Below, one piece after another: positions 1,966 to 27,474 of a stretch of DNA of 29,106 nt. Position numbers and translations under genes: made by a program. Source of the stretch: a virus; the IMG/VR virus record IMGVR_UViG_3300047287_000472, positions 1 through 29,106 of that record; one strand, given 5' to 3'. The number at the start of each line of letters is the position of its first letter. Within the stretch, counting starts at the first letter, position 1. The notes beneath the pieces are model-generated. The model had not been told where the DNA came from and searched no databases. It saw nothing but the letters and a program-made list of their open reading frames with translations.

Positions 1966-2342
1966 TATTGAGGCCTCGCGATGATGGTGTGGAGGACTGG
2001 GTTGTCGCCACGGTAGCTGCGAACTGAGATGACTTTTGCCTCACGAGTGACGCCATCCTGGAGATACTGGATGCGGTCTTGTTCGCTTGGATAATACGTT
2101 CCAAGCTCGGCTGTTCCAATCAGGACTTTGACGTCTGTTGCTTGGTATAGGCCTTCGTACTCGCGTACATTTACGGGGCTGACGATGGCTTTTACAGTTA
2201 CGTTTGTGTCTGCGCCAGTTACTGCTCCAGTCGTTGGGTTGTAGGAGCGGGCGGGGTTGGTTTTGATGTACGTGATGTTTTGACCCCACACGGCCATAAG
2301 CGGGGCTGGGATGCCGACAAATGTGGAGTCGATTAAGGACAT
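1965..2342 (-). CDS. Head closure / head-tail joining protein
   Basis: This 125-residue beta-rich protein has a C-terminal segment (DRIQYLQDGVTREAKVISVR) typical of small head-closure proteins that seal the connector and receive the tail. Its place between the DnaT-like adaptor and the gp10-like protein is the standard order adaptor, closure, tail completion. It starts 1 base after the adaptor stop codon. Function is inferred from order and fold-like pattern. Confidence 0.6.
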   Translation of the reverse strand: MSLIDSTFVGIPAPLMAVWGQNITYIKTNPARSYNPTTGAVTGADTNVTVKAIVSPVNVREYEGLYQATDVKVLIGTAELGTYYPSEQDRIQYLQDGVTREAKVISVRSYRGDNPVLHTIIARPQ

Positions 2343-2343
2343 A

Positions 2344-2871
2344 TCAGCCTCTTACCAAGGGGACTTGGAAGTTGCTGGAGCCGCCTTGGCAGTAGGGGCC
2401 GAGGTAAGCCTGGAGCCAGGGGTACACATCAAAGACGTTGTTGATGATGCCCATGGATTGGGTCATCGTGTTGTATTTCACTTTGAGGTCGCCTAGTTCG
2501 ACTTGCTCGTAGAGGCCGGTTCCAGTGCTGTTGGTGATGGCGCTGGTGTCGTTGGCGAGGGCGCGGGCCAGCTCAAAGGTGGCGGATTTGATGGCGCTCG
2601 GGATCAGCGTGCAGGCCAGCTTGATGCCGTCAACGGTGTAATTGTCGCGGGGCCAGCGCAGGGCTTGGGTGGTTTCGCAGCGGTCGCCGTAGTAGCTCAG
2701 ACCATCGAGCCAGCGGGTGGCGGAAATCAAAGCGCGGTTTTTCTGGTCGTCGGTTTTGTTGGTCCAGGTGCTGGACTCAGGGACTGTCTCGAAGTACGTG
2801 TTGGCCTCGGCCAGCGTCACGTAGCTGTTAGAGGAGGCCCCAGCAAGAGTGGCGTCGATTACTGCGGCCAC
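2344..2871 (-). CDS. DnaT-like head-tail adaptor protein
   Basis: This 175-residue protein opens with the pattern SYVTLAEANTYFETV, then ALISATRWLDGLSYYG and LRWPR, the signature of the phage 'DnaT-like ssDNA-binding' family. In tailed phages that family acts as the first head-tail connector below the portal. The start is GTG at 2871, because the nearest in-phase ATG, ten codons upstream, is followed directly by a stop. The name DnaT-like is historical; the neck role is the better reading in this context. Confidence 0.7.
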   Translation of the reverse strand: MAAVIDATLAGASSNSYVTLAEANTYFETVPESSTWTNKTDDQKNRALISATRWLDGLSYYGDRCETTQALRWPRDNYTVDGIKLACTLIPSAIKSATFELARALANDTSAITNSTGTGLYEQVELGDLKVKYNTMTQSMGIINNVFDVYPWLQAYLGPYCQGGSSNFQVPLVRG

Positions 2872-2891
2872 GGACTACATAAAGACTTTGC

Positions 2892-3071
2892 TTAAGTGTA
2901 GCGGCGAACTCTACGGGATCTGCGTTTTTTCGGGGGTTCCAGCAGGCTGGCGTGGTAAATCTCGATGCCTTCCATTTCAAGGTCGGCGGCGGTTTCAAAG
3001 TGTTTGCCGTATGGGACGTCTACGTGCCAGCGCTTGGTATCCTGTAGTAGAAAAAGCCTTACCAAGTTCAT
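2892..3071 (-). CDS. 59-residue conserved-looking late protein
   Basis: The minus strand encodes 59 residues (starts MNLVRLFLLQDTKRW, contains DVPYGKHFETAADLE, ends in the basic tail KKRRSRRVRRYT). The codon pattern and the balanced N-terminus look real. It fills the gap between the homing endonuclease region and the neck genes. Its ATG (3071) interlocks with the ATG (3070) of the oppositely oriented HTH gene inside a CATG, so the two genes start back to back. Function unknown; the Arg-rich tail could bind nucleic acid. A shorter form starting further inside is possible. Confidence 0.6.
   Translation of the reverse strand: MNLVRLFLLQDTKRWHVDVPYGKHFETAADLEMEGIEIYHASLLEPPKKRRSRRVRRYT
3038..3043 (+). 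promoter_or_regulatory. Extended -10 promoter for the lone HTH gene
   Basis: TGGTATCCT is an extended -10 (TGn-TATCCT) 27 bases before the ATG at 3070. No good -35 is seen. It would drive the plus-strand HTH gene against the surrounding minus-strand late operon. Confidence 0.4.
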
Positions 3072-3330
3072 GGCTATTAAAAAAGTTGATGAAGCTGCTG
3101 CAAAGGTAGCGCCAGGATTGGATTTCTCGAAGGTGCGGGAATGGGCTGATGTGGCGCCCGAGATTCAGAAGTTGAAGGAGGCTGGGCTCAGCGTTCCTGA
3201 GATTGCGGATCAATTGCAAGTGAGCTACGTGCTGGTTAATCAGTGCGTGCTCCAGTCGTACAAGATGCTGATTGACTCGGTACAGGTGTTTAAGGGGCAG
3301 GAGGAGAAGAGGCTTAATCCTGAAAACTAA
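3070..3330 (+). CDS. Small HTH protein on the opposite strand of the late operon
   Basis: The 86-residue product starts MAIKKVDEAAAKVAPG and carries a helix-turn-helix-like segment, KLKEAGLSVPEIADQLQVSY, at about residues 35-54, followed by a helical tail. I chose the ATG at 3070 because an extended -10 lies just upstream; a longer reading from 2965 would be antisense to the 59-residue gene and has an unnatural N-terminus. It is the only plus-strand gene in the first 9.6 kb, set between a homing endonuclease and the neck genes. A regulator of late transcription, or of its own locus, is plausible but unproven. Confidence 0.65.
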   Translation: MAIKKVDEAAAKVAPGLDFSKVREWADVAPEIQKLKEAGLSVPEIADQLQVSYVLVNQCVLQSYKMLIDSVQVFKGQEEKRLNPEN

Positions 3331-3836
3331 ATATGCTTCCAGGTTTGGCGCAGCAACACTTTCGATACTGTTGATGCGCTGATACCGTATTTAATAGCTA
3401 AGCGCTCTAAGTATCCGGCTTCTCTGTCTGTTTCGGCACGCAGAGATATAACTTTTTCTGTATTTAATTTTGCTAGATGGGTTAAGGCTTCTCCGTAACG
3501 GGTTGGAGGCTTAGGGCTCAAACCCGTTGCGTAGGAGTGCTTCATGTTTTCTGTTTGTGTTACATACTCTAGATTTTCGAGTCTGTTGTCTTGTTTATTT
3601 CCGTTTTTATGGTTTGTTACCATGCCTTCTGGTTTAGGGCCGACCCAGGCTTCGAGTATCAGTATATGTACTAACTTTGTGCGAAAGCCCTTTTCTGTTT
3701 TTACGTTTACTTGTTTATATCCTTGGCTATGAGTTGCTTCTTTTAGTGCAAAAGGTTGGTATTTATGGTGACTATAAATTTTTCCAGTCGCGCAGGCGCT
3801 ATAGCCGATAACAGATGGGATGGTGCGAAGTTCCAT
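3327..3836 (-). CDS. HNH homing endonuclease with NUMOD4-like and HTH parts
   Basis: The 169-residue protein has an N-terminal part resembling NUMOD4 (IGYSACATGKIYSHH), a core HNH nuclease (VHILILEAWVG, then NHKNGNKQDNRLENLEYVT) and a C-terminal helix-turn-helix (YLERLAIKYGISASTVSKVL). This is the usual build of free-standing phage homing endonucleases that cut DNA at an empty site and spread by repair. It is visibly more AT-rich than its neighbours, a sign of recent transfer. Its ATG lies one base past the T-run of the capsid terminator, so it sits between capsid and neck genes as an insertion. Its stop overlaps the stop of the convergent HTH gene. Confidence 0.9.
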   Translation of the reverse strand: MELRTIPSVIGYSACATGKIYSHHKYQPFALKEATHSQGYKQVNVKTEKGFRTKLVHILILEAWVGPKPEGMVTNHKNGNKQDNRLENLEYVTQTENMKHSYATGLSPKPPTRYGEALTHLAKLNTEKVISLRAETDREAGYLERLAIKYGISASTVSKVLLRQTWKHI

Positions 3837-3837
3837 G

Positions 3838-3860
3838 AAAAAGGGCCCCCGAAGGAGCCC
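3838..3860 (-). terminator. Rho-independent terminator after the capsid gene
   Basis: On the minus strand GGGCTCC pairs with GGGGCCC (one G-T wobble) around a short TTCG-type loop and is followed by a T-run. The homing endonuclease start codon follows at once. Confidence 0.8.
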
Positions 3861-3867
3861 ATATCAT

Positions 3868-3884
3868 ACCGCATGTGATGCGGT
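3868..3884 (-). terminator. Second hairpin directly after the capsid stop
   Basis: ACCGCAT-GTG-ATGCGGT is a perfect 7-base stem 3 bases beyond the capsid stop codon. It has no T-run of its own and may act with the terminator at 3838-3860, or protect the 3' end of the capsid mRNA. Confidence 0.5.
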
Positions 3885-3887
3885 TTA

Positions 3888-4991
3888 TCAGTACACCGTT
3901 TGGTCGAAGGGGGTGTTTACGAGCAGGCGGGTGATGGGCACCATTTTGGTGGTGCCGTACACCAGGTTCCAGCTGGCAGTGGCGGCCAGGTTGCCGCTGG
4001 TGGAGGCGTTGGTGGGGTTGTCGCCAGCGGCGGCCCACTTGGTGCCGGCCACGTGGTAACCGTAGTGGTAGTCCACGGCGATCACGTCCTGCATGGACAG
4101 GATGTTGCGGTCGGCAGCCAGGCGCAGATCCTGCTGCACGCCCTCGGAGATCACACCCGACTTGAAGAGGTACACGGGGTACTTCACCAGGTGGGTAGCG
4201 GTGCCACCGGTCAGGTAGGTCAGCTGGTCGTCCACCACCACGCGGAGGCCGCAGAAGTAGGCCACATCCACATTCGTGTTGCCCACACCGCCGCCACCCC
4301 AGGTGATGCTGCCAGCGGCAGCCAGGGAGGAGGTAGAGAAGGTCAGCTGGCCGACCTGCATCAGGTACGAGTACACATTGCTGTGCATCGCGATGGTGTC
4401 GAGGTCGTAGCCGCGCTCACCCAGCAGGTTGCGGGCAGCGATCACGTTGGCAGCCGAGATGTAGTTGGCCTCGGTTGCACTCGTGGTGCCGGTTTTGTTG
4501 GTTTGGTTGGCACCCAGCACACCAGCGCCGCTGATGCCGCCGAACAGACCAGCCAGTTGGGCCAGCAGGGTGGCGGTCTTCAGTTTGTTGATGGCGGCGG
4601 TCAGCTGGTTGCGGACGTGACCCAGGGGGTCGGCGCCAGAACCGAGCTGGGACAGATCATCGGCAGCGTAGGCAAAGCCACGGTGCAGGATGGTCATGAT
4701 CTGTTGGTCAGCCGTGGTCTTCTGAGGGGTCAGATAACCAGCGGTTGAGGTGCCCCAGTTGGAGGCAGAGGTGATGACCTCTTCGGTGGGGGCGATGGGG
4801 TCGAAGAAGGGGACTTGGACGCGGGTGCCGCCAGCGCGGGCATCCAGGGCAGCGTTACGCTGAACGATGCCGGACTGGATCCACTTGGACTGGTTGAAGA
4901 TGCCTTCAGAGGTGTACTGAAGGAACTCGGGGCGCGTAACCAGATCCGACAGGAAAGTACCGCCGGAATAGTTTGCAAGGTTGGCAGACAT
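3888..4991 (-). CDS. Major capsid protein (HK97 fold)
   Basis: This 367-residue protein should be the main shell subunit. It begins MSANLANYSGGTFLSDLVTR, has the conserved early motif GGTRVQVPFFDP (about residues 54-65), an Ala-rich spine helix region (NKLKTATLLAQLAGLFGG) and a C-terminal beta part. Length and placement directly after the coiled-coil scaffold gene and before neck genes are standard. The start has a clear ribosome site, CTGGAGCAATCCA-ATG, with GGAG 7 bases from the ATG. Two hairpins follow the gene, in line with a highly expressed transcript. Confidence 0.85.
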   Translation of the reverse strand: MSANLANYSGGTFLSDLVTRPEFLQYTSEGIFNQSKWIQSGIVQRNAALDARAGGTRVQVPFFDPIAPTEEVITSASNWGTSTAGYLTPQKTTADQQIMTILHRGFAYAADDLSQLGSGADPLGHVRNQLTAAINKLKTATLLAQLAGLFGGISGAGVLGANQTNKTGTTSATEANYISAANVIAARNLLGERGYDLDTIAMHSNVYSYLMQVGQLTFSTSSLAAAGSITWGGGGVGNTNVDVAYFCGLRVVVDDQLTYLTGGTATHLVKYPVYLFKSGVISEGVQQDLRLAADRNILSMQDVIAVDYHYGYHVAGTKWAAAGDNPTNASTSGNLAATASWNLVYGTTKMVPITRLLVNTPFDQTVY

Positions 4992-4994
4992 TGG

Positions 4995-5004
4995 ATTGCT
5001 CCAG
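4995..5004 (-). promoter_or_regulatory. Ribosome site CTGGAGCAAT of the capsid gene
   Basis: On the minus strand CTGGAGCAAT lies just before the capsid ATG with GGAG 7 bases away. The same string with the same spacing precedes the DUF6496 gene (8315-8324), and CTGGAGCAA precedes the genes at 21293 and 21570. Confidence 0.65.
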
Positions 5005-5036
5005 TGGGGTTAGTGATGCGGGGCGCCCCACAGGGG

Positions 5037-5744
5037 CTAGACGCCGGCCTCGGCTTTGAGGAGGCGGGCCATGTCGGGATCCTTACTGAGAAGGATCATT
5101 TGTTGGGTTACGTTCCAGGAATCCTTGGACCAGGGGTTGTTTTGCCCTGGAACGGCGGAGGGGCGGGCACTGCCTGCAACTCCCATACCCGAGCGGTTGG
5201 TGGCCGAAAAGTGATGTTCGTACCCACTGCCCGGATTTTTCAAGTTGGCGATATATTCGCCAACCGGAACTTCGACGCCTCCAGCGACAGCCACGGGCTG
5301 TCCATCTTTGGCGCGAAGATTCTCCTGCAACAAACGATAGAGCTGTTCGGGAGCAACTGCACCAGCGCTTGAAAGTTGGGCGATGGCGGCAGATTTGATC
5401 TGTTCTTTGGTGAAGCCACTGCGAATTTCTTCGATAGTGGATTCTTTCTCGGACAGTTGTTGCTTGAGTTCAGCAACAGTTTTTTGGGCTTCTTCCCAGA
5501 GCGTTTTGTATTCGCCGGTTTCAGCGAGTTTCTGGGTTTTGGCCTGCTCTTGCGCCACCCGGATTTCTTCGAGTTGAGCTTGGAGCTGTTCGCGTGCCTC
5601 TTTGTCTTTGCGGCGCTCACCGATTAGCTCGGCGTTCTTGGCCTTGAGGGCCTCGATTTGCGCTTCAAAGTTGCTCACTTCAGCCACAGGCTGGGACGGG
5701 GTTGGCTCCACAGGAGTTGCTTCCGTTTGTTGAGTTTCAGGCAC
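5037..5744 (-). CDS. Capsid scaffolding protein
   Basis: The 235-residue product has a Pro/Thr/Glu-rich head (residues 1-22), a long charged coiled coil (about 24-115, rich in Glu, Lys, Gln and Ala), and a Gly/Ser/Asn-rich second half that ends LLKAEAGV. This build, and the site between portal and capsid genes, fits a prohead scaffold that guides shell assembly and is then removed. The start is GTG at 5744, with no clear Shine-Dalgarno. No protease gene is seen next to it. Confidence 0.8.
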   Translation of the reverse strand: MPETQQTEATPVEPTPSQPVAEVSNFEAQIEALKAKNAELIGERRKDKEAREQLQAQLEEIRVAQEQAKTQKLAETGEYKTLWEEAQKTVAELKQQLSEKESTIEEIRSGFTKEQIKSAAIAQLSSAGAVAPEQLYRLLQENLRAKDGQPVAVAGGVEVPVGEYIANLKNPGSGYEHHFSATNRSGMGVAGSARPSAVPGQNNPWSKDSWNVTQQMILLSKDPDMARLLKAEAGV

Positions 5745-14086: not shown

Positions 14087-14293
14087 TTAGTTATCAACAA
14101 AACGACTAATCCAATCACCGCAGCCGTCTGTGCCTTTGACAAAGGGCCAGCTTGCTATGTAGCAACCGGTGTCCTCTGCCTTAGGGATTGGTGCGTGACG
14201 GTGGCACTCTCCGTGGAGAGTTAAAGGGTCTCTGTCTCCAGAAGCAAAGTACCAGCCCCATTGGCAGGTGTAACACTTTCTAACTTCGGTCAT
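14087..14293 (-). CDS. 68-residue Cys/His-rich putative zinc protein
   Basis: From the ATG at 14293 the product begins MTEVRKCYTCQWGWYFASGD and carries CYTC, GECHRHAP, a lone Cys, and a final WP…GCGDW segment. This CxxC…CxRHxP…W…CGxW layout fits a small family of metal-binding proteins seen in bacteria and phages. The start was chosen because it lies one base after the stop of the upstream gene. Zinc binding is inferred from Cys/His spacing. Confidence 0.65.
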   Translation of the reverse strand: MTEVRKCYTCQWGWYFASGDRDPLTLHGECHRHAPIPKAEDTGCYIASWPFVKGTDGCGDWISRFVDN

Positions 14294-15017: not shown

Positions 15018-15037
15018 TGTAGGAGTCTAACACTGTG
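15018..15037 (+). promoter_or_regulatory. Ribosome site and GTG start of the primase-helicase
   Basis: TGTAGGAGTCTAACACTGTG holds a strong AGGAG nine bases before the GTG start. The portal gene has nearly the same leader on the other strand (7251-7269). Confidence 0.6.
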
Positions 15038-17506
15038 TCCCAGAAGTCGCAAGAGTTGCTGGCGTTTGTTCGTCAGTTGCCGGCTGGATTTGCTTACGCG
15101 CCGATTTACGCCAAGGACTGTGCGCTCCAGTCCGGGAAAATCTCGAAGGGCAAGACGCCGCTAGAGCGCAGCCACCATCAGGTGATGGCGCCATCGGATG
15201 TGGCGTTGCAGATCGAGCGGAAGCCTGATGTTTTCCAAGCGGTAGGCGTCTTTACGGGCGGTCGCAGCATGGGACTCGTGATTCTTGACGTAGATCGGAA
15301 TCTCAGCCGTCTCAAGAAAAAGTGGGGAGATTCCCTGGATGGTGCTCCAGTTGTCACTTCGACGAAAGCGAATGCTGCGAAGTACCTCTTCCGCGTCCCT
15401 GAGGCTCTGTGGGGCTTGGTGAAGGGTTTTGGACTGTCGGATACCGGCGCTGGTTACGAGGTGCTCTGGGGCCGTCAGGGCGTCATCTACGGGGCTTATC
15501 CGGGCTCTAATGATGGGAAGGCACCAGAAGGTCAGTACGGGTTTGAAGGTGATCTGGAGGTTATTCCTGAAGCCCCTGAGTGGTTGCTTGCCGAGATGCG
15601 TGATCACGCCGGTAAGGAGATTCAGGACGGCGGCTTTATCAAGAACCGCAAGGCGCTGGATTTTTCAGATCGGGATCCAGCTGAGGTGGCTGAGATTATT
15701 CAGTCGGCGTTGAAGGTGATTCCGGGGCAGGGCGGCGGCAGCCGTGATCACTGGGTGAAGGTGGGAATGGCGATCCACTCTGAATTACCGACTGACCTTG
15801 GCCTAACCCTCTGGTCCGCTTGGTCTTCAGAAGATCCAGAATTTTCACAGGAGTGGTCCAATGGCAATCCCTGTGAAGACGTTTGGAAGTCCTTTCGTAA
15901 AGGGCCAGTCAGCCTGGGAACTTTGTTCTGGATGGCGGACCAGCAGATTCCAGGAAGGGCTTGGCTTTCAGAGGATTTGCGGAAAATTGTTGAGGGCGCT
16001 GAGGCGAGTCCTCTTAGGTATCGCCAGGACTACTTGGCGGGTGAAGCGCTTATTGCCAAGGCGCTGAAACTTGAAGAGACCATTGAAAATCCAGCACTGC
16101 TTGATCAAGCCAAAACGATCCTTGCATTGGAAGGTGGGCGCCGTGAAGGTGCCATGGCTATTGATCGCCTGATTGATGCTCACCTTACTTACGAACGGAA
16201 TAATGGTTCAAAGCCAGTTGATGTGTCCCAGTTGGACTGCAGCGACTTTGATTACATGATTCCTGGTTTACTGCCTAAACCTTGGTTGCTCCTTCTCCAT
16301 GGGGATGGGGGAACAGGTAAATCTGCAATGTGTATGACACTTTGTAAGCATGTGTCTAAGGGTATTGCTTTTAATGTTCATGGTGGTTTGGTTGATGTGC
16401 CAATCGGAAAATGTCTGTGGTTAAACGGTGATCAGAGCGCCAGAACTACACGTCGTGCATTTCATTTGATTGGAGTTAATGAGGGTGTAGATGTTGTTCC
16501 TGAGTGGGACATGCAATGGTATCGACGTTTTTGCAAACTGCAAAACGCCAATAAATACGATTTGGTGATTATCGACAGCCTTGATGGTTGCAATGATTCC
16601 AATCCTTATGAGGAAAATAGGCGTGAATATGCCATGCCTTTAAAGCGGTTGGCTAGGCGTAACGGCGTGGATTTTCATCAATGCACAATTATTGTCATAC
16701 ACCACAACAACAAAAACGGCAGTTTCAGGGGCACCAGCGCCATTCGGGCTGCCGTTGATGAGACCTGGAATATGGTCCGGCCTCAGGTGAAGGATCTGGC
16801 TGAGCTTCAGCTGGAGTTCAACAGCAGGGTGGTCACGGTTGAAAAGTCCAGGGATGACCGAGAGGGCCAGCAGATGGTCTTCACCCTGCGCACGGACTAC
16901 ACGTACCAGATCAGCCCTATGCCGGAGCTACAGACCCGTTTGAAGGCCGACAGCCCCACCGAGTACATGCTTGGGGTACTCAAGGTCATGCGGGAGCAAA
17001 GGCGGCCTTGGAGTGCCTCTGAGCTGTTGGAAACGAGCGAGGTAGGCGGCGACCACCGTAAGCGGGCTATCCGGTATGCGCTCCAGCGTTTGGAGTCCCA
17101 GATGCTGATCGAGCGGTGCGCTGCTCCAGCCGATCTAGTTGTTTCCGGTAGACCCCCTATCTACTACAGAGCTACTGGTACAAATGCTCCAGTGCCTTTC
17201 AGTCAGAGGGCACACGCGCGTGGGGAGTCCGTGGAGTGTGTGTCAAAAGACCAAAACCCTTGCACTGGAACGGATTCGATTGACAAAGCGTTTTGTCAAA
17301 AGTCCGAGTTTGTCAAAAGTCCTGAGCTGGATCCCCAAAGCCCTGGGACTTTTGACAAAGGGGGACTTTTGACAAAACCGTTTGTCAATGAGAACCCTTC
17401 CGGCGCAAGCGAAATGACTTTTGACAGGGGTTTTAAGGGAATAGGGGTGAACACGGATGTTCAGGTGGAACAACAATTCCGTGATGCCTCCACGTTTTGG
17501 GATTGA
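15035..17506 (+). CDS. AEP primase-polymerase / RecA-like helicase fusion
   Basis: The 823-residue protein should prime and unwind DNA at the phage fork. Residues 1-200 are an archaeo-eukaryotic primase (bifunctional primase/polymerase) domain with the catalytic LDVD (Asp86, Asp88) and GYEVLWGRQGVIYG. About 215-315 is a PriCT-like linker domain (IPGQGGGSRDHWVKVGMAIH). About 400-650 is a RecA/DnaB-type ATPase with Walker A GDGGTGKSA (near 424-432), Walker B LVIIDS (near 513) and IVIHHNNKNGSFRG. A winged-helix-like part follows, then a disordered tail encoded by the TTTGTCAAAAGTCC array. The gene starts with GTG behind AGGAG and heads the plus-strand replication module. The helicase part looks more AT-rich than the flanks. 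Confidence 0.88.
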   Translation: MSQKSQELLAFVRQLPAGFAYAPIYAKDCALQSGKISKGKTPLERSHHQVMAPSDVALQIERKPDVFQAVGVFTGGRSMGLVILDVDRNLSRLKKKWGDSLDGAPVVTSTKANAAKYLFRVPEALWGLVKGFGLSDTGAGYEVLWGRQGVIYGAYPGSNDGKAPEGQYGFEGDLEVIPEAPEWLLAEMRDHAGKEIQDGGFIKNRKALDFSDRDPAEVAEIIQSALKVIPGQGGGSRDHWVKVGMAIHSELPTDLGLTLWSAWSSEDPEFSQEWSNGNPCEDVWKSFRKGPVSLGTLFWMADQQIPGRAWLSEDLRKIVEGAEASPLRYRQDYLAGEALIAKALKLEETIENPALLDQAKTILALEGGRREGAMAIDRLIDAHLTYERNNGSKPVDVSQLDCSDFDYMIPGLLPKPWLLLLHGDGGTGKSAMCMTLCKHVSKGIAFNVHGGLVDVPIGKCLWLNGDQSARTTRRAFHLIGVNEGVDVVPEWDMQWYRRFCKLQNANKYDLVIIDSLDGCNDSNPYEENRREYAMPLKRLARRNGVDFHQCTIIVIHHNNKNGSFRGTSAIRAAVDETWNMVRPQVKDLAELQLEFNSRVVTVEKSRDDREGQQMVFTLRTDYTYQISPMPELQTRLKADSPTEYMLGVLKVMREQRRPWSASELLETSEVGGDHRKRAIRYALQRLESQMLIERCAAPADLVVSGRPPIYYRATGTNAPVPFSQRAHARGESVECVSKDQNPCTGTDSIDKAFCQKSEFVKSPELDPQSPGTFDKGGLLTKPFVNENPSGASEMTFDRGFKGIGVNTDVQVEQQFRDASTFWD
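17239..17426. repeat. Inverted iteron array TTTGTCAAAAGTCC / GGACTTTTGACAAA
   Basis: Two direct copies of TTTGTCAAAAGTCC (17292-17305, 17309-17322; step 17) face two inverted copies GGACTTTTGACAAA (17346-17359, 17363-17376; step 17) across 23 bases. Together they form arms of 31 bases with 28 pairs. Degenerate copies lie at 17239-17252, 17279-17288, 17381-17388 and 17416-17426. The array is inside the 3' end of the primase-helicase gene. Lambda-type origins lie in this way inside the initiator gene; a regulator site is the alternative. Confidence 0.75.
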
Positions 17507-17507
17507 C

Positions 17508-17619
17508 CTAGACCGCCTCTTCGGCTAGATTCCTAAAGGATCTAAAAACGTTATGAGGTAGTCGCTGCAACGACTACCTCTGACTGATCCACCGCTCTCT
17601 CGCAGCGGCGAATAGCCGC
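17508..17619 (+). other. Run of hairpins downstream of the primase-helicase
   Basis: Directly after the stop codon there are successive stems: CTAG-CCG/CGG-CTAG (17508-17528), TAGATTCCT/AGGATCTA (17526-17544, one bulge), a perfect 10-base stem GAGGTAGTCG/CGACTACCTC (17555-17580), and CCGCT/AGCGG or GCGGC/GCCGC (17592-17619). No stem has a proper T-run. This could be a structured RNA, a processing site or an unusual terminator. No gene is seen in these 121 bases. Confidence 0.45.
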
Positions 17620-17627
17620 ATCTTCAG

Positions 17628-18299
17628 ATGCTTCCCAAGCTTACTTTTGATTACGCAACGCAGACCTACCACGTCCCAGCAGAATGGGTTAGTTGGGATT
17701 GGATAAATGATTTTGAAAACTATCCAGATCAAAACCATGAAGTTTTTAAGGATGAATATGACTGGAGTTACAGGAATAAATCTGGGGTTTTAAATAGATA
17801 CATCCGCACAATTGAAGGACATACAACTATCTGCACCAGTAAAAAAAGTGTTCAGTACGAAAGGCATACAGCAGCAAAACCTTATGTGTATTACTTTTTT
17901 GCATTAGCAGCAGTTGAACTAATAAATACTCCTTCTTTGTACAGGAGCGAACGTGCCTCAGCTTTAAATGGCGCCTTTGTTGTTAATTATGCTAATTCTA
18001 TTGATATTTCTAATTTAACTATTATGGCAGACAAAACACGTAATAAAAAATATATTATTAGTAGCGAATTTGGTGCCTTACTTGCCCGTGTTTTTAATGC
18101 TACATCAGGAGTAAGACGTGATGATTTTTTAAAAGTTGAACAGCGTGAAGACAAAAAGAGTATATGCCCAAACTGTAAAACTGTTTATGAACTACTATCA
18201 AAAAATTGCTGGACGCCTGAGCATCCAGAGTATCAAAAATATGCCGAGTCGTTTATTGCGCAATTAGAGTACATACGTAGTAGAAACACCAACGGGTAA
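17628..18299 (+). CDS. AT-rich orphan protein of 223 residues
   Basis: The product begins MLPKLTFDYATQTYHVPAEW, is rich in Tyr, Asn and Lys, and has a CPNC motif near residue 183 followed by a helical end (PEYQKYAESFIAQLEYIRS). I recognise no family. Base composition is clearly more AT-rich than both neighbours, which points to recent transfer, as with phage morons or homing genes. It stands apart from the tightly overlapping genes further on, after a run of hairpins. A single CPNC pair alone does not prove zinc binding. Confidence 0.7.
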   Translation: MLPKLTFDYATQTYHVPAEWVSWDWINDFENYPDQNHEVFKDEYDWSYRNKSGVLNRYIRTIEGHTTICTSKKSVQYERHTAAKPYVYYFFALAAVELINTPSLYRSERASALNGAFVVNYANSIDISNLTIMADKTRNKKYIISSEFGALLARVFNATSGVRRDDFLKVEQREDKKSICPNCKTVYELLSKNCWTPEHPEYQKYAESFIAQLEYIRSRNTNG

Positions 18300-26138: not shown

Positions 26139-26356
26139 GCCGAGTCGCGGTCCATGCCGAATTGGCCGGAAAGGTTGTCAGCTGCTTCCCGGATAGCCCA
26201 GGCGGATTTGGCGCGTTCCATGTGATGGAGCGTGTTTAACAGTAGAGCGGCTTCGAGGAGGCCGTTCCAGTCGCCGGCAGCGTGGCGGGCTTTGAGCATG
26301 TCGGCGGTGGTGCGCTCGCTCAGTTTAGTTTCAAGGCTTTGGGCAATTAAGTTCAT
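26135..26356 (-). CDS. 73-residue helical protein after the endolysin
   Basis: The product starts MNLIAQSLETKLSERTTADM and is helical throughout (GLLEAALLLNTLHHMERAKS). The ATGA overlap with the endolysin stop sets the start at 26356. It has no membrane span. Being the last gene of the lysis operon it might be an accessory lysis protein, but no specific sign is seen. Confidence 0.6.
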   Translation of the reverse strand: MNLIAQSLETKLSERTTADMLKARHAAGDWNGLLEAALLLNTLHHMERAKSAWAIREAADNLSGQFGMDRDSA

Positions 26357-27474
26357 TTGGGTCGGATACGCAGGAACCAGCCGGATTCTGCTCCATCCAC
26401 AAGCCAACGGGGCAGCCAGTTCTTTCGAGAATACGCAATTCCAGCGCCGCCTTTGTTGCTGATGTAACCGCCGGAAGTCAGATCCGCTTCTCCGTTGGGG
26501 TCGTTCAGGATGAAGTGGCTTGGGGTGTAGCCGATGACGACGCTCCAGTGCCCGCCGCCGCTTGGGTTGCTGACCGGGCCTCGATGGAGCCAGCCAACTG
26601 GGGTTGGGTAGCCCATGTTGATCTCGGATTCCAGGCTGGCGGCAGTTCCATCCTGGATAAAGGTGGCGATCAGGCCCAGCTCTTTTAATGCCGAGACTTG
26701 GGCATGAACGTCGGTGGAGTCGCCGTACTTTTTGCGGACGAGGTTATAGCTGTCGTCATTGCCGATCTTGCCCCAGTAGCGAGCAACCATGGCACAGCTA
26801 GAGCTAAAACATTCCCGGTAGCCAGTGCCGGATTTGTTGTCGAGCTGGTATTCGTAGGGGACTTTTAAGAGGTGCTCTTTGGGATGGACAGTGGGCGAGT
26901 CATGAGAGTCCATCACTGCAATCAGTTTTTTGGGATAGTCGGGATCGGTGGCATAACCTTCGTTCTTAAGCCATTGGGCAGCTTCATTGCGGCTTGGAGC
27001 GTTGTTGCAGCCTTTCCAGTTTTTATAGTCTTTGTACCAGCGGCTTACGAGATAGCAAACAGCGGTTTGAATATCGGGAAAGTCGAGAAAGCTGTCACGG
27101 ATTGTGATCCAGTTGCCGTTGATGAACTCTTGGGTGGTGGTCAGGGTTCCATCGCCCTTGATGCCGAAGAAGTTGTTGCGGCCTGAGACGAGTTTTCCAC
27201 AGGATGATTCCAGTGCCCATTGGGCGGCTACAAGTTCTGGGTACTTGGCGCCAGCAATGCGGCCAGCTGTAACCATGCCGTCCCAGTTGTTTTCAATTTG
27301 GATTTGTTTGCCGGATTGGCTCCAGGTTTTGAACCATTGCTGGTTGCGGCCCAGGATGTTGGGGTTCGCTTTGTTGATAGCCTCCTCCAGCTCGGATACG
27401 GCAGCCATCTGGTGGGGAAGGCTGCGGTAAAACCGCATGAGATCCAGCAGCCTGATGGTGTTGGGGTTAGCCAC
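26353..27474 (-). CDS. Two-domain endolysin: glucosaminidase plus C39-like peptidase
   Basis: The 373-residue enzyme should cut host peptidoglycan. Residues about 60-195 form a glucosaminidase-like lysozyme domain (AAQWALESSCGKLVSGRNNF with catalytic Glu89, then FFGIKG). Residues about 200-373 form a papain-like C39-type peptidase with Cys222 (YRECFSSSCAMV), His309 (GGGHWSVVIGY) and Asp325 (ILNDPNG). There is no signal peptide, so release would need a holin; small membrane genes lie upstream. Such glycosidase-peptidase pairs are known in phage lysins, with one cutting sugar and the other peptide bonds. Confidence 0.85.
   Translation of the reverse strand: MANPNTIRLLDLMRFYRSLPHQMAAVSELEEAINKANPNILGRNQQWFKTWSQSGKQIQIENNWDGMVTAGRIAGAKYPELVAAQWALESSCGKLVSGRNNFFGIKGDGTLTTTQEFINGNWITIRDSFLDFPDIQTAVCYLVSRWYKDYKNWKGCNNAPSRNEAAQWLKNEGYATDPDYPKKLIAVMDSHDSPTVHPKEHLLKVPYEYQLDNKSGTGYRECFSSSCAMVARYWGKIGNDDSYNLVRKKYGDSTDVHAQVSALKELGLIATFIQDGTAASLESEINMGYPTPVGWLHRGPVSNPSGGGHWSVVIGYTPSHFILNDPNGEADLTSGGYISNKGGAGIAYSRKNWLPRWLVDGAESGWFLRIRPK

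Follow-up and report, generated by a model that had tools for sequence, protein, structure and literature searches.

A probable replication origin within the 3' end of a phage primase-helicase gene, formed by a mirrored iteron array

Introduction

The window analysed here, a 29,106-nt stretch comprising positions 1 to 29,106 of the viral record IMGVR_UViG_3300047287_000472, contains a large inverted array of short repeats inside a primase-helicase gene, raising the question of what function such an array serves and of whether the DNA or the protein that it encodes is under selection. The original prediction, made from the window sequence, favoured an origin of the lambda type lying inside the initiator gene, with a repressor site or a strong cruciform as alternatives. 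The analyses below support its leading idea. The array is very probably the phage replication origin, situated within the 3' end of its own initiator gene, with a winged helix that would recognise the iterons and an initiator-helicase that would load symmetrically, and it is at the array that we infer replication to start.

Results and discussion

The initiator gene and its predicted domains

The gene carrying the array and the relevant parts of its product are as follows.

15035 to 17506, plus strand: initiator gene, 823 aa (open reading frame, Pfam, AF2 model, fold search)
16943 to 17191, plus strand: winged-helix domain, residues 637-719, candidate iteron binder (Pfam HTH_12; AF2; PDB winged-helix folds)
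17051 to 17098, plus strand: recognition helix, residues 673-688 (AF2 secondary structure; iteron co-variation in relatives)
17063 to 17065, plus strand: codon 677, within the recognition helix
17456 to 17500, plus strand: C-terminal helix, residues 808-822, after the linker encoded by the putative origin (AF2; recurs at the C-termini of relatives)

The product is ordered as Prim-Pol, PriCT-2, RepA-like AAA_25 helicase, winged helix, disordered linker and C-terminal helix. Pfam annotation identified Prim-Pol, PriCT-2, AAA_25 and a winged helix (HTH_12), in agreement with the primase-helicase assignment made originally, and a fold search with the AF2 model matched the helicase part to DnaB, RSF1010 RepA and RadA. 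The winged-helix model (pLDDT 88, pTM 0.77) matched winged-helix folds in the PDB and consisted of helices at residues 641-655 and 661-665, the recognition helix at 673-688 and wing strands at 692-695 and 710-713. Tail residues 718-807 were predicted to be disordered (AF2, pLDDT <50), as had been anticipated for the protein encoded by the repeats. On the combined basis of Pfam, the AF2 model and the fold search, the protein is predicted to have the domains of a self-sufficient initiator. The C-terminal helix that recurs in relatives past the disordered linker, often with the pattern ...EAA..WD, could be a protein-docking peptide.

The mirrored iteron array

The sites of the array are arranged around a single axis.

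17239 to 17429, no strand: whole mirrored iteron array, dyad centre 17334, proposed replication origin (sequence, codon-resampled nulls)
17239 to 17252, plus strand: outer left iteron TGTGTCAAAAGACC, 2 mismatches
17263 to 17275, plus strand: second mirrored element CACTGGAACGGAT, 9/13 identical to its mirror
17280 to 17287, minus strand: reversed short iteron TTTGTCAA
17291 to 17305, plus strand: inner left iteron 1, TTTTGTCAAAAGTCC
17309 to 17322, plus strand: inner left iteron 2, TTTGTCAAAAGTCC
17346 to 17359, minus strand: inner right iteron 2, TTTGTCAAAAGTCC
17363 to 17377, minus strand: inner right iteron 1, TTTTGTCAAAAGTCC
17381 to 17388, plus strand: reversed short iteron TTTGTCAA, mirror of 17280 to 17287
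17393 to 17405, minus strand: mirror of the second element, CGCCGGAAGGGTT
17415 to 17428, minus strand: outer right iteron CCTGTCAAAAGTCA, 3 mismatches

The core geometry was as originally described, with two direct and two inverted 14-mers at a step of 17 and 23 bases between the arms. The four exact copies of TTTGTCAAAAGTCC lie at 17292 and 17309 on the plus strand and at 17346 and 17363 on the minus strand, and the two 31-base arms are complementary at 28 of 31 positions since they differ only in the 3-base spacer. The prediction of at least four degenerate flanking copies was likewise borne out (17239 plus, 17280 minus, 17381 plus and 17415 minus), and the feature proved longer than claimed, forming a dyad of ~190 bp in the DNA that codes for the disordered tail of the initiator. 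All sites share the mirror axis at 17334, with TTGACAAA at 17280 on the minus strand mirroring TTTGTCAA at 17381 on the plus strand and the outermost pair (17239 plus and 17415 minus) agreeing within 1 nt. The full dyad is complementary at 60 of 96 positions (z 8.5), and no other 200-bp dyad in the 29-kb record comes close, the next reaching a z of 4.7. An overlapping iteron-like pair at 14130-14148, upstream of the initiator gene, had 3 mismatches in each copy and was within chance expectation.

GC content was 47% in the array, 61% at the dyad centre and 36% in the next gene. A consistent AT-rich melting region was not found in the window array, nor did the relatives have a consistent GC dip, and there was no turn of GC skew at the array; GC skew, computed for 14 records, seems to follow gene orientation and is uninformative as an origin marker. 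Rfam and tRNA scans gave no match.

Selection on the DNA rather than the protein

The window array was compared with codon-resampled versions in which the protein was unchanged. Its inverted-repeat score was 29, whereas none of 60 such versions scored above 11, and its dyad z of 8.5 exceeded the best of 50 such controls (5.9), ruling out chance or protein-level repetition as the cause of the array. Among relatives at 75-99% protein identity (449 non-independent pairs), fourfold sites within ~150 nt of the dyad centre were 69-95% identical against 62% elsewhere in the gene, while residues in the same interval were 52-79% identical against 90% elsewhere. These comparisons uphold the earlier proposal that the DNA is what selection acts on: as read from the sequences, the selected object is the DNA of the array, and the sequence of the protein tail would be largely dictated by the DNA element that the tail encodes.

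A lineage in which the stop codon has moved is, in terms of sequence, a natural experiment against a protein-level cause. Four relatives (L012, L014, L015 and L262) have their stop codon and C-terminal helix within the dyad, such that the right arm is noncoding yet retained, with dyad z values of 7.1 in L012 and 6.1 in L014 and L262; in L015 the spacing is shifted and only the iterons show. What looked like a loss of the array in L012-L015 was not one, the stop codon having moved. Genes L012-L015 keep a similar C-terminal helix despite the shift of the stop codon into the dyad.

Conservation of the array across relatives

The family was collected by five scans of viral contigs using family members, yielding hundreds of loci, from which 153 non-redundant genes were tested for dyads with 30 codon-resampled controls each. 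The dyad was stronger than every codon-resampled control in 129/153 relatives, and z exceeded 6 in 113/153 compared with 0/306 control segments of the same genes. A single perfect dyad was too strict as a criterion, the remaining 24 genes failing it mostly because spacings shift, and counting iteron copies recovered 23 of them, in which the copies exceeded their nulls. In L267 there were four weak, roughly mirrored copies across the stop codon, not above the null.

The iterons themselves were clade-specific, e.g. TTTCGGAAAAGTC, CCGGAACAAAT, TGTCTAAAGTCC, TGTCCCACTG, TGTCCCACCT, TGTCCCCCCT, TGTCCTCTTTT, TGTCCGTTTT and TGTATAAACC, with the mirrored layout kept and with TGTC, GACA and TGGAA at matching offsets on both arms. 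The original expectation that relatives would keep the repeats while the residues vary thus held for the mirrored layout and the internal repetition, and not for one particular 14-mer. A 29-base stretch with two window iterons had exact matches in no more than three contigs of the viral collection, other clades having other iterons.

Nucleotide and protein searches of isolated phages with the window gene gave no match, and a prophage and host search of GTDB genomes, with scans that reach close relatives only, found no relatives. The closest cultured relatives of the initiator gene are in cyanophages and cyanobacterial plasmids, at <30% identity.

A possible explanation for the symmetry is a cruciform or RNA hairpin in which pairing matters rather than sequence, and the single strand of the window array does fold far better than shuffles (z -8.4). 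However, complementarity across relatives is highest at the iterons and drops between them and near the centre, and a stem alone leaves unexplained both the iteron copies in direct repeat and the arms that are, in most relatives, only ~50-65% complementary. Nor would it explain the co-change with residue 677 described below, and a role of this kind is accordingly considered highly improbable.

Co-variation of the recognition helix with the iterons

Co-variation was assessed in 97 relatives with TGTCC-type iterons, using a tree of residues 1-600 and 424 variable columns; clades with other cores fall outside this set because the iteron consensus script was anchored on TGTC. Changes in iteron bases 6-8 fall on 44 of the 192 branches of this tree. 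Residue 677, within the recognition helix, ranked first of the 424 columns, with 23 of its 29 changes coinciding with changes in iteron bases 6-8 (p=1.4e-12), and the other leading columns were in the winged helix or the iteron-encoded tail, the best of residues 1-640 ranking 31st. Residue 677 was still first with a tree of residues 1-715 minus the recognition helix and, by a small margin (5e-6; next 2e-5), with a winged-helix-only tree minus column 677. In a permutation stratified by branch length it was first outside the array-encoded tail, with 23 coincident changes seen against 7.8 expected (0/20000 permutations). Codon 677 lies ~175 nt upstream of the array, so the co-change is not a coding artefact. 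Block swapping of the 3' end may contribute, as columns across the winged helix, not 677 alone, co-change with the iterons.

The correspondence takes the form of a fairly consistent code. K677 occurs with C6 followed by C/G7; RKALQ, RKGLQ, RKTLQ, RKSLQ or RKAVQ with CA; RKAL[ED] with mostly G6; R/T/QKAT with A6; and GKAL with T6. The code is not strict, S677 and T677, for example, each occurring with several iterons.

This co-variation points to the winged helix of the protein itself as the probable binder of the iterons, which makes the repressor-site and cruciform alternatives raised originally much less likely. Inverted repeats commonly serve as operators, and the array might in that case be an operator bound by some other regulator of the replication module, e.g. 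the RHH or zinc-ribbon protein. The array is, however, at the 3' end of a gene, and a third protein would not explain why recognition-helix residues of that same gene track the iterons while residues 1-640 do not do so comparably, leaving this reading very unlikely.

A model for the proposed origin

In the proposed model, the winged helix would recognise the iterons, and owing to the mirrored layout the initiator subunits on one arm would face the opposite way to those on the other, such that two helicase rings could be assembled for bidirectional replication. Priming would be carried out by the same protein, and the repeats would be read through as a disordered linker joining the winged helix to the short C-terminal helix. 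Binding, melting, the two rings and origin activity are steps that we infer. At the level of sequence, the array is near-universal among the relatives, is kept as DNA and changes together with the recognition helix.

The nearest competitor to this model is that the initiator binds the array and is itself controlled by it, through titration of copy number, handcuffing or incompatibility, and that replication begins at another place, as is the case with the inc iterons of plasmids. The winged-helix co-variation ties the binder to the site and is silent on initiation, and the AT-rich melting region was not found, both of which would fit a control array. Against this, no other 200-bp dyad surpasses the array in 11 of 14 long records, and a second one of equal strength was not seen in these records, a comparison that covers dyad-symmetric elements only. 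A purely regulatory role is considered unlikely, though less so than any of the other alternatives. Packaging, partition and termination sites can also be repeat clusters, and one could happen to fall in the initiator gene, but those functions have no evident link to the winged helix of the primase-helicase, and such a coincidence is the least probable of the alternatives.

If the origin model is true, both the origin and the protein that binds it would be predictable from sequence alone for hundreds of uncultured phages. Among these phages, more than a dozen initiator/iteron specificities would be available as a natural series and, with both the residue (677) and the bases (6-8) that decide specificity named, the recognition of DNA and the way it evolves would be directly testable. 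More tentatively, the initiator and origin could form one self-recognising module, with a DNA specificity that is diversifying fast across the phage group, perhaps driven by satellites, competitors or nucleases directed at the origin, and with variants enough to derive a residue-to-base code for one winged-helix fold.

Other features of the record

Just 3' of the initiator gene, at 17555-17580, there is a 13-bp inverted repeat with no loop, 92% complementarity (GAGGTAGTCGCTG / CAACGACTACCTC) and no T-run, possibly a terminator or other site. The gene directly after the initiator (17628-18299) has a CPNC motif, no match in Pfam or PHROG and a GC content of 36% against 53.5% for the record, and was perhaps recently acquired. 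On the minus strand, 26353-27474 combines glucosaminidase and C39-like peptidase domains in one gene, whose product is a possible lysis or cell-wall enzyme. The window terminase is closest to those of Vibrio phages (43%).

Distant relatives with iterons in the coding tail

Iterons in a coding tail were also observed in distant relatives. Synechococcus phage S-CBS1 gp41, an AAA_25 helicase with a winged-helix match after it, has 6 copies of GTGCGAAACC (null maximum 4) in the last 440 nt of 3626-5362, and L396, a relative of S-CBS1, has 6 iteron copies against a null maximum of 3. The helicase WP_015217793 of Anabaena cylindrica plasmid pANACY.03 has 8 copies of TGTTGGACAA (null maximum 5) in the 3' part of 2179-4443. 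Gp41 and the Anabaena helicase resemble the window gene in that the coding tail following their AAA_25 helicase contains iteron copies, but they are only distantly related and without a large dyad (z 3.4 and 4.4, respectively). There was no convincing array in S-CBS4, Caulobacter phage RW, Pam2, AeroV_348, Manatee Spring phage or CyRepA-type plasmids, and the marine S-CBS1 relatives L398-L403 had only 4 weak copies where the null gave 3-4 (L397, L404 and L405 being outside this comparison). These observations suggest that AAA_25 helicases may more widely have an origin coded in their tail; the cultured cyanophage and the Anabaena plasmid would provide a laboratory entry to a distantly similar arrangement. 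Searches of the open-licence literature found no account of an array of this kind in cyanophages.

Comparison with known systems

The window array is a compact set of repeated sites with fixed spacing, as in iteron-controlled replicons, and is conserved at the DNA level and not solely as a repeat in the protein, as in an intragenic origin of the lambda type. Lambda O is not known to contain a helicase or primase, and lambda has 4 iterons mid-gene beside an AT-rich tract, whereas the window has 6-8 sites in a dyad at the 3' end and an AT-rich tract was not found. In the lambdoid phages the initiator's iterons lie within its own gene O and are translated (PMC7466680), and in both systems the iterons are inside the initiator coding sequence. 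In place of lambda O/P-style loading of a host helicase, the window protein has its own helicase and Prim-Pol domains.

The origin of PY54 spans 212 bp in the 3' part of repA, a stretch not needed for the protein to act in trans. The RepA proteins of PY54 and N15 are of the P4-alpha type, while the window protein combines an AEP Prim-Pol with a RecA-type helicase; the sites of P4 alpha itself (ori/crr) are outside the 3' end of its gene. For circular replication of the PY54/N15 replicons, repA alone has been stated to suffice (PMC10612081). Phage P4 alpha is a single protein in which primase and helicase are joined to a winged helix that binds the repeats of the origin, the primase being of the bacterial Toprim type (PMC4234260). 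The window protein likewise combines a primase, a helicase and a C-terminal winged helix in one polypeptide, but with Prim-Pol and a RecA/RepA-type AAA_25 domain rather than a Toprim primase and P4/D5-type helicase.

In the SaPI Rep-ori and SCCmec Cch2 systems, an initiator helicase recognises iterons (SaPI Rep via its C-terminal domain) and two hexamers have been proposed (PMC7581432); unlike in the window, the origin is downstream of the gene, the primase is separate and the helicase is of another family. In the PLE satellites of Vibrio cholerae, the initiator gene repA and its origin co-vary between lineages, and an origin-directed phage nuclease has been suggested as selecting for diversification (PMC8263062). 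PLE RepA differs from the window protein in belonging to the RepA_N family, in having an intergenic origin and in not being a helicase-primase (PMC7145576). Intragenic origins as a kind are thus already known from lambda O and PY54 repA, whereas the protein architecture, the dyad layout and the co-evolving code described here appear to be new.
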